A DNA stretch of 43,011 bases, taken from the NCBI GenBank assembly GCA_938085425.1, contig CALKGQ010000043.1, positions 1 to 43,011 on the forward strand. Reading direction: 5' to 3'. This stretch comes from an uncultured Flavobacteriales bacterium (lineage in GTDB: Bacteria > Bacteroidota > Bacteroidia > Flavobacteriales_D > Sanyastnellaceae). Below the pieces are notes generated by a model, which searched no databases, was not told the DNA's origin, and saw only the letters and a list, made by a program, of their open reading frames with translations. Below, in pieces: positions 31,353 through 40,930 of this stretch (position 1 is its first letter; the number at the start of each line of letters is the position of its first letter). A program made the position numbers and the translations under genes.

Positions 31353-31886
31353 ATGATCACCCGTCTTCTCAAAATCTTGATTGCCGCCGCCTCTTTGGCC
31401 TACATGGTCATGCTCTACGCCCAAGGAAGCTGGGGAGCGGCCATCGGAATGACCTTTGTCTCCATCGTTCTCGTGTTGGTGAATTTGCGCAGTGTGCGGC
31501 TCGTGGTGGCGTTTGCCAACCTCCGCATGCAACGGATGGAAGAAGCCGTGAAGTGGCTCAACCGGGTTTCTGTCTCGCAATTGTGGCCCCGTCAGCGGGG
31601 GTACTATCACTTCCTTTTGGGCAGTGTGACCATGCAGAACAACTTGAATGAAGCGGAATCTCACTTGCGCAAAGCGCTGAGCCTTGGTTTGCGCCAAGAC
31701 CACGACAAGGCCGCGGTCAAACTCAACCTTGCCGTTTGCCTCAGTGCAAAGCAAGACAGAAAGAGAGCCTTGATCATGATCCAAGATGCCAAGCGCCTTG
31801 ACACCAAGGGGATGCTCAAGAAAGACATCAAGCAGGTGGAGTCGATGATCAAGAACCCAAGGGTGGTGCAGCGAGGCCGGCGCTGA
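31353..31886 (+). CDS. Two-helix membrane protein with TPR-like repeats
   Basis: 177 aa. Two adjacent hydrophobic helices (about 5-22, LLKILIAAASLAYMVMLY; about 28-45, AAIGMTFVSIVLVLVNL) anchor a cytoplasmic or periplasmic helical domain. TPR-like units: GYYHFLLGSVTMQNNLNEAE, HLRKALSLGLRQDHDKAAVK, LNLAVCLSAKQDRKRALIMI. The C-terminus is basic (RVVQRGRR). TPR units bind partner proteins. The partner is unknown. It is convergent with the E1 gene with a 7-nt gap and no terminator. Confidence 0.8.
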   Translation: MITRLLKILIAAASLAYMVMLYAQGSWGAAIGMTFVSIVLVLVNLRSVRLVVAFANLRMQRMEEAVKWLNRVSVSQLWPRQRGYYHFLLGSVTMQNNLNEAESHLRKALSLGLRQDHDKAAVKLNLAVCLSAKQDRKRALIMIQDAKRLDTKGMLKKDIKQVESMIKNPRVVQRGRR

Positions 31887-35557: not shown

Positions 35558-37249
35558 TCATTTGGCGGCGGTCAGCGTGTGGTCGGCTTGAGGCTGTGCG
35601 GATGCCGCCCTTGCCTGTGCCACGGACACCTTTTCGCCGTCGATTTCAGCGACCAAAAAAGCATCCTCAAAACCATCGTTTCGCGCCGACAACAGATGCT
35701 GTCGTGCCGTTTCTTCAGCGGCGACGCCTGCTGTGAGGTAGCGGTGGGTGCCATCCTCGGCCAGTCGTTGTTCGATGTGGCCCATGTTCAAGAAGGCATT
35801 CAAAACCTCGACAGGCACACCGTCAGTGTACCGGCCCAGCTGGACGTGGTACGTGATGACCGCAACGTGGAAGGTTTCGGCCACCTTTTGCACGGATTCT
35901 TGGCGAATCGACTCCAAGGCCGCGGCTTCTTCCAAGGAGATCCTCACGCCATTGCGGTAGGCCGTCACAAACGCGTCTGAATGGCTTTGCGACTTGGCTG
36001 TGGCCAAGGCGGCCCGCGCAGCACTGAGCCTCTCGTGTTCTTTGCCCACGTGCACCGTCAACCCCTCTTCACCTGCGACAGCTTCCACCCGGTCTGAGCC
36101 GTACATGTCCGTGGAAGGCGCGAATGCAGTGAGGTAGGCTCCATATTGGACGCGGTAAGTCACCCCGGGGTTGTACACTTTTTCACGCAGGTCGTGGAGC
36201 ATTTTTTGCTCTGTTTGGGCCGCCGTGTTGCCGACGGTCTCGAGCATTTGCGCCATTTGGGCTGCAGTCAATTCCGAGATCACCACCGCGCTGTCTTGTG
36301 CAAAAGTCGCGGGATCGCCTTTGGCTGGCGCGTACAAGGCCTTCCACTCGGCAAGTGAAATCGTCTGGCCATGTTCGTTCACCAGCATGTCCGGGCTGTT
36401 GGGCTCGAGGTCCCTGTGGTCAGGCACCCCGTCGGCGTCGCTGTCCAGGGCGCATCCATTTTTGTCGACAATGGCGCCGAGTTCCGTGCCACCGCAAAGA
36501 TCCTTGACGTCTTTCACACCGTCGCCGTCGGCATCCACACCCAAGGCGAGGAAGTCTTCGGGAAACAATGTCTTGAGGTAGGTCTTTCCGCGGCCGAGCT
36601 GGAAGCCCAAGCCGGCCTGGGCCGTGCGCCAGTTGGCACCGGCTCCGGGAATGGCTGTGACCGCCAAAGTGGCGTGCAGCCGTCTTGTGAGTTGAACATC
36701 CACTCCAGCGCGTAAAGGAATTGCCATGCCGCTGCTGCGCTCCAAGGTGGTTTCGAACACATTGTCACGGGTCAAAGGGCTTGGACGTTCGATGTCAGGC
36801 ATGGGCACGGGCTGGATGGTTCCGTAGAGCAACCCGTCGTCCCAAAGGTGGTACGTAGATCCTGCTGCGTCTTGCTCGTCTGCACGAAGGGCAGAGGTCT
36901 GCCAGCTGAGGCCTGCACCAGCCCAAGGCCGAATGGCATGCGATTCCGCTCCAAACGCCAAGTAGCGAACCCCAGCACCCAATGTTTGGGTCGAAGCTTG
37001 GTGCATGACCACACCGCGGTCACGGGTGGCACGCGCAGAGAGCAAGTCGAGGTCCACACTCCAATGGCTGCCCACGGCTTGGGACATGGAAAAGCCTCGG
37101 CTCAGCGAGGCGTTCATGTCCTGAACTGCGGTGGTGCCAGACGATGCGCTCAGGCTGGGTTGTGCCCAGGCTTGGCCCGTCGAAAGAAGCGCAATTGCCA
37201 CCCCCGCGGTGCGGAGTGTGGCCATAAGAGATGTCATAGGGTCCTTCAT
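35558..37249 (-). CDS. Outer-membrane protein: beta-barrel-like domain, TSP type-3 repeats and two SPOR-like domains
   Basis: 563 aa from ATG 37249. Signal peptide to about residue 29 (ALLSTGQAWAQ). Residues 30-230 have an OmpA-like barrel pattern (HWSVDLDLLSARA, LGAGVRYLAFGAE, RAGVDVQLTRRLHATLAVTA, LGFQLGRG). About 236-275 contains thrombospondin type-3 calcium repeats (DADGDGVKDVKDLCGG, DSDADGVPDHRD). Two SPOR-like units follow (YRVQYGAYLTAF ... DAFVTAYRNGVRI near 363-445; YHVQLGRYTDG ... DAFLVAEIDGEKV near 466-545). SPOR domains bind denuded peptidoglycan, so the protein may link the outer membrane to the wall. The OmpA C-terminal domain is absent. A weak box TACCTCCA lies 5 nt upstream (37255-37262). 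Confidence 0.8.
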   Translation of the reverse strand: MKDPMTSLMATLRTAGVAIALLSTGQAWAQPSLSASSGTTAVQDMNASLSRGFSMSQAVGSHWSVDLDLLSARATRDRGVVMHQASTQTLGAGVRYLAFGAESHAIRPWAGAGLSWQTSALRADEQDAAGSTYHLWDDGLLYGTIQPVPMPDIERPSPLTRDNVFETTLERSSGMAIPLRAGVDVQLTRRLHATLAVTAIPGAGANWRTAQAGLGFQLGRGKTYLKTLFPEDFLALGVDADGDGVKDVKDLCGGTELGAIVDKNGCALDSDADGVPDHRDLEPNSPDMLVNEHGQTISLAEWKALYAPAKGDPATFAQDSAVVISELTAAQMAQMLETVGNTAAQTEQKMLHDLREKVYNPGVTYRVQYGAYLTAFAPSTDMYGSDRVEAVAGEEGLTVHVGKEHERLSAARAALATAKSQSHSDAFVTAYRNGVRISLEEAAALESIRQESVQKVAETFHVAVITYHVQLGRYTDGVPVEVLNAFLNMGHIEQRLAEDGTHRYLTAGVAAEETARQHLLSARNDGFEDAFLVAEIDGEKVSVAQARAASAQPQADHTLTAAK

Positions 37250-37305
37250 GAGAATGGAGGTAGGATTCACTTTCCTTACGCCTCCAGCCTCTGAAAGGTT
37301 ACGTC

Positions 37306-38439
37306 TTACGCAAGACCGGCCATGGATTGTCCAATGTGCGTGCCGATGGCCACCCCCATGCCTCCAAGCCGGACCCCCACATAAAGACCGGGCTTGACTT
37401 CTTGGACGATGGGCAAACGCATGGAACCTACGCCCAGCTGTCCCGTCCATCGATGGGCCGTGGCAAAAGCTTCCGCACCTTGGATGTGCCTTTGTGCCCA
37501 CGCCACAAGCCGTTCCTCCGATTCTCCGGGATCCTGGCAATCCCACTGTCTACCTCCGCCAATCAAGATGCGTCCATCCACCTCCCTGGCGTAGACGTAG
37601 CCTCGGTCGTGGTGAACCGTGGAGGTCAAACGCAATTCTGGGAGAGGCTGACTGACCAGGACCATGTTGGGCACAGGCCCAACGTCCACAGGCACCAAAT
37701 CAGAGGCCAAAGCATTCGTGGCGAGAAACACGCGGGAGGCATTCAATACACCATGGGGCGTGGCCAAGGACCAGCCTTCGGGGGCGGCCTCCACGGACTC
37801 AATGGACATCCCCGCAAGCCATTGGATGCCCGCAGGGGCGAGGGCTGACCGCATGGAGGCGATCATGCGTGCCGTGTCCACATCGCCTTCCAATGGGCTC
37901 GAGATGCTACCGCATAGTTCGCGCAGACCGCTCTGGTTTGCGGTGGTTTCAGCAAACACCTCCCGGCCCATGATGGGGGCGAGCTGTTGGTTCAAGACAG
38001 GGAGAAAGTCCTTCGCCTCGGCGTGCAAATCTGGATCGGTGAAGGCTTCCACGGCCCCACAAGCCCGGTAGGCAATGGCCTTGTCCCCCCAAGTATCTCG
38101 GAGCGCCAAGAGTCCCTTCCATCTCATCTCGACCATTGCCAAGGTGGCGTCTGGTCCCATTTGCTTCCAGTCGTCCAAGAGCTCGGATGGACTGCCAAAA
38201 CAGGCAAATCCAGCATTCCTCGTGGAAGCGCTCCCAATGGGCGCCCGGTCCACGATGGAAATTGTCCAAGAGGGGTGCCGCTTGCGAAGAGCCAGCGCCG
38301 CATTCATGCCCACAATGCCAGCGCCCACCACAACAGCATCTTGGGTTGGAACCCAATGCTTTGATTCCCAGAAGCTGAATCCCGAAGGGGAGTCGGGGTC
38401 CTTTGCGGAGAAACCCGTATTTTTCGGCTGACCTGACAT
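37306..38439 (-). CDS. FAD-dependent oxidoreductase, DAO (glycine/D-amino acid oxidase) family
   Basis: 377 aa. Rossmann motif DAVVVGAGIVGMNAALAL (34-51), IVDRAPIGSASTRNAGFACF (FAD and substrate loop), GRILIGGGRQWDC, and the C-terminal GLYVGVRLGGMGVAIGTHIG. It oxidises an amine or amino acid with FAD; the true substrate cannot be read. The start ATG 38439 is the only plausible one: no in-frame start lies closer to the FAD motif, and a perfect -7 box TAGGTTTG ends 4 nt before it. That ATG overlaps the ATG of the divergent gene. It is followed after 56 nt by the OmpA-like gene. Confidence 0.88.
   Translation of the reverse strand: MSGQPKNTGFSAKDPDSPSGFSFWESKHWVPTQDAVVVGAGIVGMNAALALRKRHPSWTISIVDRAPIGSASTRNAGFACFGSPSELLDDWKQMGPDATLAMVEMRWKGLLALRDTWGDKAIAYRACGAVEAFTDPDLHAEAKDFLPVLNQQLAPIMGREVFAETTANQSGLRELCGSISSPLEGDVDTARMIASMRSALAPAGIQWLAGMSIESVEAAPEGWSLATPHGVLNASRVFLATNALASDLVPVDVGPVPNMVLVSQPLPELRLTSTVHHDRGYVYAREVDGRILIGGGRQWDCQDPGESEERLVAWAQRHIQGAEAFATAHRWTGQLGVGSMRLPIVQEVKPGLYVGVRLGGMGVAIGTHIGQSMAGLA
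38418..38425 (+). promoter_or_regulatory. -7-like box TATTTTTC of the coiled-coil gene, inside the DAO gene
   Basis: It lies 12 nt before ATG 38438, within the first codons of the divergent oxidase gene. The match is moderate. Confidence 0.35.
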
Positions 38440-40219
38440 GATGCAAACCTACGCGACACCCCTCCAAGCGATTTTCGCTTCCTTGGCCTTGACTTTGGCC
38501 TGCATGAATGCCTCTTGGGCACAATCGGAACTGATTGTGAGTGGGACCTTGCGAAACGAAGACACCAAGGCCAAACTCGCAGAGGTGGAGGTGAGCGTTT
38601 TGCAGAATGGGGAGCCATTCGACCAGATCACAGCCGACCGCAACGGACGCTACTTCTTGGAGTTGCCCATGGGGCAGGACTACACCATCGTTTTTGGGAC
38701 CCAAGGCATGGTGTCCAAGCGTGTCCAGATCAACAGTTCAGGCACGCCGGAAGGCGTCTTGGAGGAGGGGTTCATGTTTGACCTCGACATGTCCCTTTTT
38801 GACAACGTCGAAGGGTTTGACACCAGCATTTTGGACACCCCCATTGGGATTGCGTCCTTCGACGACAGAAGTGAGCGCATTCAGTTTGACTTGGACCACA
38901 CCAACGACATGCGCAGGCGCATTGACAGGGAGCTGGACCGTTTGGCCAATCTGGAGGAAGATCTTGAACGCGCACAGATGCGCTACGACAACGCCATGGA
39001 AGATGCCGCAAGGGCGGAGGCCCGGGAGCGATGGGAGGATGCCTACGAGGAATTTGAGAAGGCATTGTCCTTCATTCCAGGGGATGAAAGGGCCCAGGCA
39101 GGAATGGACAGGATGGGACGTGCGTTGGGCGCTTTGGCCCAAGCCGAGGAAGATGCACAACGGGCACTGGAGGAAGCCGCGGCAGAGGAGGCTGCTGCAT
39201 TGGCTGCGGAGGAGGCCGCGGCTGCGGCTCTCTTGGCGGAAGAAGCCGCTGCTGCGGATGCTGCAGCGCGTGCCGAAGAGGCTGCTGCCCGGCAGGCGGA
39301 GGCCGCCGCACGTGCCGAAGAAGCTGCAGCACGCGAGGCAGAGGCCGAGGCAAGCCAACCCGATGCGCCTGAGGAACAGGAAGCCCCTGAGGAGGAGGTG
39401 CAAGAAGAACTTGAAGAGGAGCCCGTGGTCAACGTTCCAGAACCACAGGTGGTCCCTGAGGAAAGAGAGGACAATTCTGGTGCTTTGTTGGAGGCTACGG
39501 AAGCCGAGTGGAAGCGCAAGCAAGACCAACTTGAAGCCGATCGCAAGGCACGTCAAGCCCAAGCCCAGGCCAGGGCAAAGAATTGGTCCCAACGGGCCAG
39601 CAACGCCGAGGATGAGGCCGAGGCTTACTACCGAAAGGCCCTTGAGTCAGAGCGTCAGGCCACGGCCGCTGACGTCCAAGACGTCAAGGACGGACAAATG
39701 ATTCAGTCGGAGAGATGGAAGGCAGAGGCCGCAGGACGTGCCCGCAATGCCCGCAAAGAGATGATGTCCTTGGACAATGGGACACGAACGGCTTTGGCCC
39801 GGGACATCGACCTGCCTTATGAGGGGAGAGAGGCAGAGCATCGCCGCAAGCGGACTGCAAGCTGGGATGAGCTGGAGTCGTTCAAGCGCGCCAACCAGAC
39901 CCGGCAAAACACCCAGGCCCAGGCAGTCAAGAACAGGGGCCAGAGTGCTTTGATGGAGATGGACATGAAGGTGGCGGCGTCCAAAGAGCGCGGCTTTGAT
40001 TTGTCCTTGCCTCCTGAAGACCGTGACATCCCACAAGGGGTGCACGAGACGAGTTACGAGATTCAAAATGGTTTGGTCATCATGCGGACGGTCCGCGACG
40101 GAGATGTCGTGCAGCGGTACCGGAAAGTGGTCATGAAGACCGGCACCTATTACTTCTGCGGGGACCAAAGCATCACCAAAGACCGCTGGATGTTGGAAAC
40201 CAACTTGTCCTTCGACTGA
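38438..40219 (+). CDS. Exported Ala/Glu-rich coiled-coil protein with N-terminal carboxypeptidase-regulatory-like domain
   Basis: 593 aa (ATG 38438, or the next codon). Signal peptide to about 29 (LACMNASWAQ). Residues 30-100 resemble a transthyretin-like CarboxypepD_reg domain (LIVSGTLRNEDTKAKLAEVE, DRNGRYFLELPMGQDYTIVF). About 155-235 is TPR-like (WEDAYEEFEKALSFIPGDERAQAGM). About 235-310 is almost pure Ala/Glu/Arg coiled coil. An acidic Pro-rich bridge, more coiled coil, and a compact C-terminal domain (YEIQNGLVIMRTVRDGDVV, QRYRKVVMKTGTYYF) follow. It was not assigned to a named family. It probably spans the periplasm and works with the TonB-like gene 3 nt downstream. Confidence 0.78.
   Translation: MMQTYATPLQAIFASLALTLACMNASWAQSELIVSGTLRNEDTKAKLAEVEVSVLQNGEPFDQITADRNGRYFLELPMGQDYTIVFGTQGMVSKRVQINSSGTPEGVLEEGFMFDLDMSLFDNVEGFDTSILDTPIGIASFDDRSERIQFDLDHTNDMRRRIDRELDRLANLEEDLERAQMRYDNAMEDAARAEARERWEDAYEEFEKALSFIPGDERAQAGMDRMGRALGALAQAEEDAQRALEEAAAEEAAALAAEEAAAAALLAEEAAAADAAARAEEAAARQAEAAARAEEAAAREAEAEASQPDAPEEQEAPEEEVQEELEEEPVVNVPEPQVVPEEREDNSGALLEATEAEWKRKQDQLEADRKARQAQAQARAKNWSQRASNAEDEAEAYYRKALESERQATAADVQDVKDGQMIQSERWKAEAAGRARNARKEMMSLDNGTRTALARDIDLPYEGREAEHRRKRTASWDELESFKRANQTRQNTQAQAVKNRGQSALMEMDMKVAASKERGFDLSLPPEDRDIPQGVHETSYEIQNGLVIMRTVRDGDVVQRYRKVVMKTGTYYFCGDQSITKDRWMLETNLSFD
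38444..38451 (-). promoter_or_regulatory. -7 box TAGGTTTG of the DAO gene, inside the coiled-coil gene
   Basis: Exact consensus, 4 nt before ATG 38439, lying in codons 3-5 of the divergent gene. Confidence 0.6.
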
Positions 40220-40222
40220 TCC

Positions 40223-40930
40223 ATGGGGGGGACCCAAAAAGCAGTGTTGATCACCCTCGTTTTGCACGTTGTGGTGCTGGGGGCAATGGTGGTTGTGCCC
40301 GTCAGGGAAGGTCTTTTGCCCAGCGAAATCTTTGCGGAGGTCGCCATGGTAGATGCGGAAGATGACGCCACACAAAGACAGTCTTTTGAAGAGCAATTGC
40401 AAGAGAAGATGGCGCAGCGTGTGGCGAATTTGAGGGCTGACGCACAAGCGGAGTCTTCGTCGGAAGCCCGGTCCACTTCGTCAGGTCTGGACGAGGCCCA
40501 ACTGGAAGCCCAAGTTGAAGCCGAGTTGCGGGCCATGGAAGAGGCGGAGTTTGAAAGGCTTGCAGCGGAAGAAAAGGAATTCGATACCGCCGGCGAAGCC
40601 GCCATGGAGCGGCAAGAGGTGGGGGAGACGTTTGAGGCATGGGATGCGCAATACGATGGGCTCGTTACGGTTCGCTACAGTTTGAAAAATCGGTCAGGTC
40701 GGGACTTGGACGTGCCGGGTTACACCTGTGAAGGCGCCGCCCAAGTGGAGGTGGCCATCGAGGTGTCCCCCACAGGCCAGGTCATGGAGGCAACTTTGGT
40801 GAAAGGAGATGTGGAGAGCTGCTTTGGACAGGCCGCCTTGAAGAGCGCGCAAAGGGCGAGGTTCAATGCCGATGCGCAGGCGCCACGGCGCCAGGCCGGG
40901 AGGCTGACTTACGTCTTCGTGGCGCAATAA
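40223..40930 (+). CDS. Short TonB/TolA-like energy-transducer protein
   Basis: 235 aa. One N-terminal TM helix (about 6-26, AVLITLVLHVVVLGAMVVVP), an acidic/Ala coiled-coil spacer (about 45-125), then a C-terminal domain (about 140-235) with the TonB/AgmX-type pattern: VEVAIEVSPTGQVMEATLVK, ESCFGQAALKSAQRARF, GRLTYVF. A Cys pair (C168, C198) brackets it. The usual TonB Pro-rich spacer is replaced by coiled coil. It lies 3 nt after the coiled-coil gene, so the two are surely co-transcribed. No ExbB/ExbD is adjacent. It may pass force or bind the coiled-coil partner. Confidence 0.75.
   Translation: MGGTQKAVLITLVLHVVVLGAMVVVPVREGLLPSEIFAEVAMVDAEDDATQRQSFEEQLQEKMAQRVANLRADAQAESSSEARSTSSGLDEAQLEAQVEAELRAMEEAEFERLAAEEKEFDTAGEAAMERQEVGETFEAWDAQYDGLVTVRYSLKNRSGRDLDVPGYTCEGAAQVEVAIEVSPTGQVMEATLVKGDVESCFGQAALKSAQRARFNADAQAPRRQAGRLTYVFVAQ

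Follow-up and report, generated by a model that had tools for sequence, protein, structure and literature searches.

The junction between the oxidase and coiled-coil genes

The window analysed here is a stretch of 43,011 nt, contig CALKGQ010000043.1 of assembly GCA_938085425.1, from an uncultured Flavobacteriales bacterium of the Sanyastnellaceae. In it, a minus-strand gene for a flavin adenine dinucleotide (FAD)-dependent oxidase and a plus-strand gene for a coiled-coil protein stand head to head, and their start codons overlap. The junction comprises the following features, with conservation given for seven junctions of the genus:

37306..38439, minus strand: oxidase gene, 377 amino acids, FAD-dependent DAO family (PF01266), extended at the N-terminus by about 20 residues compared with other genera
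38438..40219, plus strand: coiled-coil gene, 593 amino acids; by eye, its start resembles a signal peptide and a coiled coil is present; a CarboxypepD_reg-like domain scores below the cut-off
38418..38461, both strands: conserved block shared by the two genes, with both elements and the two starts; the seven genomes agree in 30 of its 44 columns
38437..38439, minus strand: oxidase start codon ATG with 38439 as first base, the sole ATG, GTG or TTG in codons 1–30 of the window's oxidase
38438..38440, plus strand: first candidate start (ATG1) of the coiled-coil gene, an ATG in 4 of 7 and ACG in the other 3
38441..38443, plus strand: second in-frame candidate start (ATG2), kept in 6 of 7 and ATA in G001
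38451-38444, minus strand: oxidase −7 box TAGGTTTG, in plus codons 3–5, 4 nt before the ATG, predicted +1 at 38439
38418..38425, plus strand: putative −7 box of the coiled-coil gene TATTTTTC, in oxidase codons 5–8, matching TAnnTTTG in 7 of 8 positions, predicted +1 at 38430
38402..38405, plus strand: TTTG, a possible upstream promoter element, invariant in 7 of 7 and 12 bp from the coiled-coil element

The sequence CATG at 38437–38440 carries an ATG on each strand with two bases in common, exactly where an earlier note on this DNA had placed the overlap of the oxidase ATG (38439–38437) and the coiled-coil ATG (38438–38440). Each box also lies inside the start of the opposite gene, as that note had described. 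In the window, in-frame stops are located just upstream of both starts. The coiled-coil gene has no later ATG before codon 23 and no further start of any kind before codon 16; TTG codons follow within codons 16–20. The sharing of two bases is unremarkable by itself. CATG reads the same on both strands, and an ATG is therefore matched by one on the opposite strand whenever a C precedes it.

The two boxes (38418–38425 and 38444–38451) face one another with 18 bp between them, in all seven junctions alike. This geometry is read directly from the sequence. From box spacing, +1 is predicted at 38430 for the plus gene and at 38439 for the minus gene; the two predicted sites are 9 bp apart and in crossed order. 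The arrangement is that of face-to-face divergent promoters, with boxes on opposite strands near enough for the predicted transcripts to overlap. There are two separate boxes at the junction and not a single pseudo-symmetrical one for both directions. The best explanation, which we hold to be probable though far from secure, is a head-to-head pair in which, through compaction, a single conserved block of about 44 bp has come to hold two promoters and two starts.

The oxidase matches the Pfam profile PF01266 (DAO) with 120.6 bits versus a gathering score of 27.9, over residues 34–374 and profile positions 1–351 of 353. Twelve NCBIfam models match and none reaches its cut-off; the best is ThiO with 48 bits versus 250.8, and no named DAO subfamily (glycine, sarcosine or other amine oxidase) is assigned. 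Profile matches of the coiled-coil gene are of the CarboxypepD_reg type and all sub-threshold. The gene names of the earlier note are loose for a DAO-type flavoprotein with no assigned substrate and for a gene with sub-threshold matches only. A conserved FSFWE motif forms residues 21–25 of the window's oxidase. Viral contigs searched with the oxidase gave no relative.

Conservation within the genus and origin of the overlap

The genus comprises 11 genomes, and a pattern search located the block at the junction in 7 of them. In the remaining four, the oxidase gene or the beginning of the coiled-coil gene was partial or not found. The own genome had one extra, unrelated match with 3 mismatches. 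The block aligns without gaps in all seven junctions and its middle part between the boxes is conserved as well; five of these relatives have oxidases with just 50–57% identity to that of the window. The oxidase start codon is kept throughout, as ATG in G000, G003, G005 and G001 and as GTG in G002, G008 and G004, three genomes that are similar to one another. In these three, ACG replaces the first plus ATG and the second is kept, leaving two starts one base apart. G001 has kept the first and lost the second. Arrangement, oxidase start and both elements are present in 7/7, whereas the exact ATG/ATG overlap is confined to 4/7.

Third codon positions of the oxidase separate the block from the rest of the gene. 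In six full-length sequences, 6 of 9 are invariant in the first nine codons versus 21 of 362 elsewhere (Fisher p = 6e-6), and none of 316 nine-codon windows beyond codon 10 exceeds 2 invariant third positions. Because this invariance is far beyond that of the remaining gene, the oxidase side of the block is constrained at the DNA level and not just at the protein level.

Outside the genus, the comparison covered 65 junction stretches of further genera in the family; some hits (e.g., G114 and G116) were left out and some stretches lack a coiled-coil neighbour. At 43 of the 65 junctions the oxidase start codon, CAT on the plus strand, shares its T with a TAnnTTT element, mostly as CATATTTTTACGTT or CATACTTTTGCG. 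Three junctions, all of genus g14, have TAnnTTT without CAT, and 19 have neither within the 100 bp examined. The background of CATAnnTTT is 86 in 4996 stretches of 100 bp from these loci. All three g14 junctions carry an in-frame GTG for the oxidase whose end is 22 nt away from the element's first T, a distance equal to that in the window's genus. All ten other-genus oxidases in alignment A1 lack most of the extension of the genus and begin just before an FSYWE motif (starts set by hand). This distribution fits a stepwise compaction in which the oxidase start would have moved from the element to a position beyond it and then onto the start of the neighbour. The direction is taken from the distribution and not from a tree. 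The start-codon overlap looks like a late, genus-level end state of a family-wide compaction.

Two further elements of the family junctions were observed. An element TATTTTTACGT between both genes is near-identical across several genera (e.g., L009, L027, L202 and L208). TGCAAGG (CCTTGCA on the minus strand) recurs by eye beside or just before the coiled-coil start in L010, L013, L017, L018, L027 and others, also where this DNA is non-coding; it is possibly the ancestral oxidase box. The CGT of the family element TATTTTTACGTT recalls the extracytoplasmic function (ECF)-type motif SM6 described for Flavobacterium psychrophilum (PMC9723704). An ECF-type reading gained nothing from the genomes, as TTTACGT had no clear enrichment near called starts in five samples.

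The 601-bp junction stretch of G127 (g14) is identical to part of NZRP01000026.1, a metagenome-assembled genome labelled Crocinitomicaceae. By this match, the family belongs among the Flavobacteriales labelled Crocinitomicaceae. A head-to-head synteny across the order was suggested by a coiled-coil homolog in 27 of 30 loci and was dropped: just 3 of 80 named loci have a detectable homolog beside the oxidase, a lower bound because the queries of this screen came from few families, and one of the three (L067) is from the window's own family. From these loci, the pair appears to occur in the family and in some other families of the order.

Leaderless spacing of the oxidase box

All seven junctions keep the six consensus bases of the oxidase box, and its sole variant, TAATTTTG in G003, alters just the two free positions. 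Counted from the A of the ATG, the box covers −12 to −5. In the promoters described for F. psychrophilum the −7 box occupies −12 to −5 (PMC9723704), and those described for Flavobacterium johnsoniae have 4 or 5 nt between box and +1 (PMC6847099). The gap of 4 nt together with this published spacing places the predicted oxidase +1 on the A of the ATG. The oxidase mRNA is likely leaderless. Leaderless genes of Actinobacteria and Deinococcus-Thermus are reported with a promoter box about 10–12 bp upstream of the start codon (PMC3160421); the spacing is alike, whereas the box here is of the Bacteroidota type TAnnTTTG.

The spacing was counted in an own-genome sample of 392,519 bases, the window and 20 further stretches. 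The gene caller was home-made and crude and placed the oxidase start downstream; all plausible starts were used, and the control motifs passed through the same caller. Of 76 TAnnTTTG sites, 50 are close to a called start; an ATG follows after 4–6 nt in 20 of the 50, and after exactly 4 nt in 14. The oxidase box is among the 20. The control TTnnTTTG has 3 of 54 at this spacing (p = 2e-5 versus TAnnTTTG) and ATnnTTTG 0 of 39. The rarer controls TTTAnnTG (1/5), TAnnTTTC (2/5) and TAnnTTGT (2/8) separate poorly from TAnnTTTG and are too few to judge. TAnnTTGC, which resembles the alternative motif SM5 (TAnnTTGY) of F. psychrophilum, was seen near called starts in 14 of 33 cases in the same sample.

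The difference between TAnnTTTG and TTnnTTTG recurs in G001 (11/20 versus 2/26; p = 6e-4) and, in the same family, in G013 (7/34 versus 1/35) and G021 (6/30 versus 0/24). In G038 from another family the counts are 7/57 versus 2/30. A count independent of gene calls compared TAHHTTTG-N4-ATG with the single control spacing N9 in whole genomes. The own genome has 61 versus 11. The 11 genomes of the genus sum to 535 versus 77 with a ratio of at least 3 in 11/11, and 26 other genomes of the family to 1812 versus 553 with such a ratio in 16/26. In 23 genomes of other families the totals are 1458 versus 1188, and the ratio is reached in 2/23. The oxidase box is not part of these totals because of GG at its two H positions. 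This large spacing class is a property of the genomes, from which we infer leaderless translation; it suggests that leaderless mRNAs are widespread in this Flavobacteriales family.

Bacteroidota are generally without Shine-Dalgarno signals. The leaderless fraction is given as 5.5% in F. psychrophilum (PMC9723704). For F. johnsoniae, 87% of leaders are reported as longer than 10 nt (PMC6847099), and for Bacteroides thetaiotaomicron 3.7% as shorter than 10 nt (PMC7366714). No report of leaderless-rich Bacteroidota was found in the open-licence literature searched.

Competition at the shared block

Several observations weigh against two promoters and two starts within the block. The oxidase box is TAGGTTTG in 6 of 7 junctions and has GG at both H positions; only the G003 form agrees with TAHHTTTG. 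Promoters described for F. johnsoniae almost never have G at these two positions (PMC6847099), and no other of the 20 boxes with leaderless spacing in the own-genome sample carries GG. The coiled-coil element has its TATTTTT core in 7/7 and is off-consensus at the final base, which is C in five and A in two. Among 33 TAnnTTTC sites of the own genome just 5 are close to a called start, a share no higher than for control motifs. The two promoters may be weak or require assistance. A −33 element is not visible at the junction; this was given little weight because none is visible in 61 aligned promoters of the own genus either. The invariant TTTG at 38402–38405 stands at an unusual distance of 12 bp, which does not fit the classical −33 element. 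It keeps the third position of oxidase codon 12 constant though the residue varies (A, P or S). A scan for sigma-70 type promoters gave 0 sites in the region versus 0.4 expected from shuffles, a result that is expected and uninformative for this phylum. On the coding level, the coiled-coil side is too short to prove a DNA-level constraint, with an invariant third position in 3 of 7 gap-free codons, and the signal-peptide-like start of the window's coiled-coil protein is without K or R. A later in-frame start of the coiled-coil gene is present at codons 6–11 in 6 of 7 congeners, an ATG in five and GTG or TTG only in G003. The oxidase, too, has a further in-frame ATG in four of the seven, at codon 11 in G003 and at codon 19 in G002, G008 and G004, where it stands just before the conserved motif.

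These later starts would allow one or both genes to begin downstream of the block. The coding overlap would then be partly an annotation artefact and the promoter overlap alone real. Some of the later coiled-coil starts yield by eye more ordinary signal peptides, as MKRLFFKHAW in G005. We consider this reading unlikely. The coiled-coil gene of the window lacks a later ATG before codon 23, the oxidases of the window, G005 and G001 have no later start in codons 2–30, and at least one of ATG1 and ATG2 is present in 7/7. Because later in-frame starts exist in relatives, the coding overlap is most secure in the window and less so in them.

The flaws of each box, GG on the oxidase side and the terminal C or A on the other, could also mean that conservation of the block chiefly serves one promoter alone or some other DNA-binding site. 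The other box would be a by-product of coding and the other gene would be transcribed from elsewhere. The invariance of the extra TTTG outside the block would agree with this. The key positions of both elements are invariant in 7/7, however, and the coiled-coil element has its counterpart in the 43 junctions of other genera, which makes a single site unlikely.

For the compact pair favoured here, the following working is proposed. The coiled-coil gene would be transcribed rightward from the element at 38418–38425 with its +1 at 38430 and a leader of 8 or 11 nt. The oxidase gene would be transcribed leftward from the box at 38451–38444 with its +1 on the A of the ATG, giving a leaderless mRNA. 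Each transcript would traverse the opposite promoter. The predicted melted regions are about 4 bp apart, and the open complexes would need the same DNA. From the size of the polymerase footprint, we infer steric exclusion. If both promoters are used, it is physically likely that only one polymerase at a time occupies the block, in line with the earlier note's view that polymerase serves one side at a time. The pair would stay together as neither promoter could shift without breaking the other gene. Start-codon-initiated messages, apparently common in these bacteria, possibly allowed the tight packing.

Steric exclusion imposed by the geometry is also the starting point for a real regulatory switch, in which high expression of one gene represses the other and a regulator binding the block selects the direction. 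The block with its 44 bp exceeds two boxes of 8 bp and its middle is conserved too. Scans of four neighbouring proteins matched no regulator family. Within 38380–38500 there is a single perfect inverted repeat of at least 6 nt, AAGCGA/TCGCTT at 38466–38480; it is located outside the block. There is no known reason for a mutual exclusion of an oxidase and an envelope-type protein. In the study of five Escherichia coli promoters with opposite transcription start sites (TSSs) 10–23 bp apart, basal activity is described as too low for competition, and competition as arising upon strong activation of one side (PMC12825309). The repression upon one-sided activation is a precedent for a switch; the basal promoters without competition speak against it, and against the mutually exclusive expression that had been suggested for this pair. 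A switch is quite unlikely. The most likely outcome is an ordinary low-level competition between two weak promoters with no on/off switch. A strong sense-antisense coupling, also suggested earlier, finds little room: the predicted RNAs, with 5′ ends at 38430 and 38439, would be complementary over 10 nt only, which offers little for an antisense mechanism, though the AUG of the oxidase would be covered. A chance overlap without function is highly improbable given the 7/7 conservation and the DNA-level constraint, even though CATG yields opposite ATGs for free and 7 of 39 divergent pairs of the own-genome sample, this one included, have overlapping candidate starts if all possible starts are allowed.

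Related systems differ in several respects. In the E. coli argE-argCBH system, promoters face one another and transcripts overlap at the 5′ ends, with a repressor operator between the promoters and start codons apart. Facing promoters and, as predicted, 5′-overlapping transcripts are shared by the junction described here; its promoters are instead inside coding sequence and no operator is known. In an excludon, opposite transcripts overlap at their 5′ ends over hundreds of nt. The 5′ overlap is alike and, with 10 nt predicted, much shorter here. The bidirectional promoters of E. coli described by Warman, Grainger and colleagues (PMC12825309) are similar to what is predicted here in that two opposite transcripts arise from a short stretch and polymerase in one direction blocks the other; the predicted TSS distance of 9 bp compares with their 10–23 bp. 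They share one pseudo-symmetrical −10 element, in contrast to two facing −7 boxes, crossing predicted transcripts and overlapping start codons. The face-to-face type is already known. Unusual at this junction are the missing spacer, the overlapping starts and the leaderless spacing.

The surroundings of the pair were also inspected. The next gene on the plus strand has a TonB_C-type C-terminus according to profile matches:

40223..40930, plus strand: next plus gene, 235 amino acids

By eye, a TonB_C-like gene also follows the coiled-coil gene in L040 (G023, genus g14). The gene downstream of the oxidase (35558–37270, minus strand, start uncertain) has 53–66% identity in G003, G005 and G001 and just 33–35% over shorter stretches in G002, G008, G004 and G006; the neighbour of the oxidase thus varies within the genus. 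A second head-to-head pair of the window includes a CATG that gives each strand an ATG at 31353/31354. Its plus gene (31353–31886) has TAGTTTTG 28 nt upstream; the minus gene, which by eye resembles a pRiA4b ORF3-like protein, may start later. The CATG start overlaps at 31353/31354 and in L148 (6377/6376) are uncertain, as the starts themselves are uncertain.

Divergent promoters normally sit in an intergenic spacer. At this junction there is none: the two start codons and the two predicted promoters share 44 bp of doubly coding DNA, which selection has maintained across the genus. What look like intermediate stages in other genera hint at how the overlap came about. A more far-reaching view is tentative and rather doubtful: leaderless mRNAs would be a major class in the family, in contrast to the Bacteroidota of the cited studies, and would have enabled a fused block that acts as a choice, open to one polymerase at a time, between the oxidase and the envelope protein. 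If many genes of the family are leaderless, translation initiation in Bacteroidota would be more diverse than is apparent from two species of Flavobacterium and one of Bacteroides.

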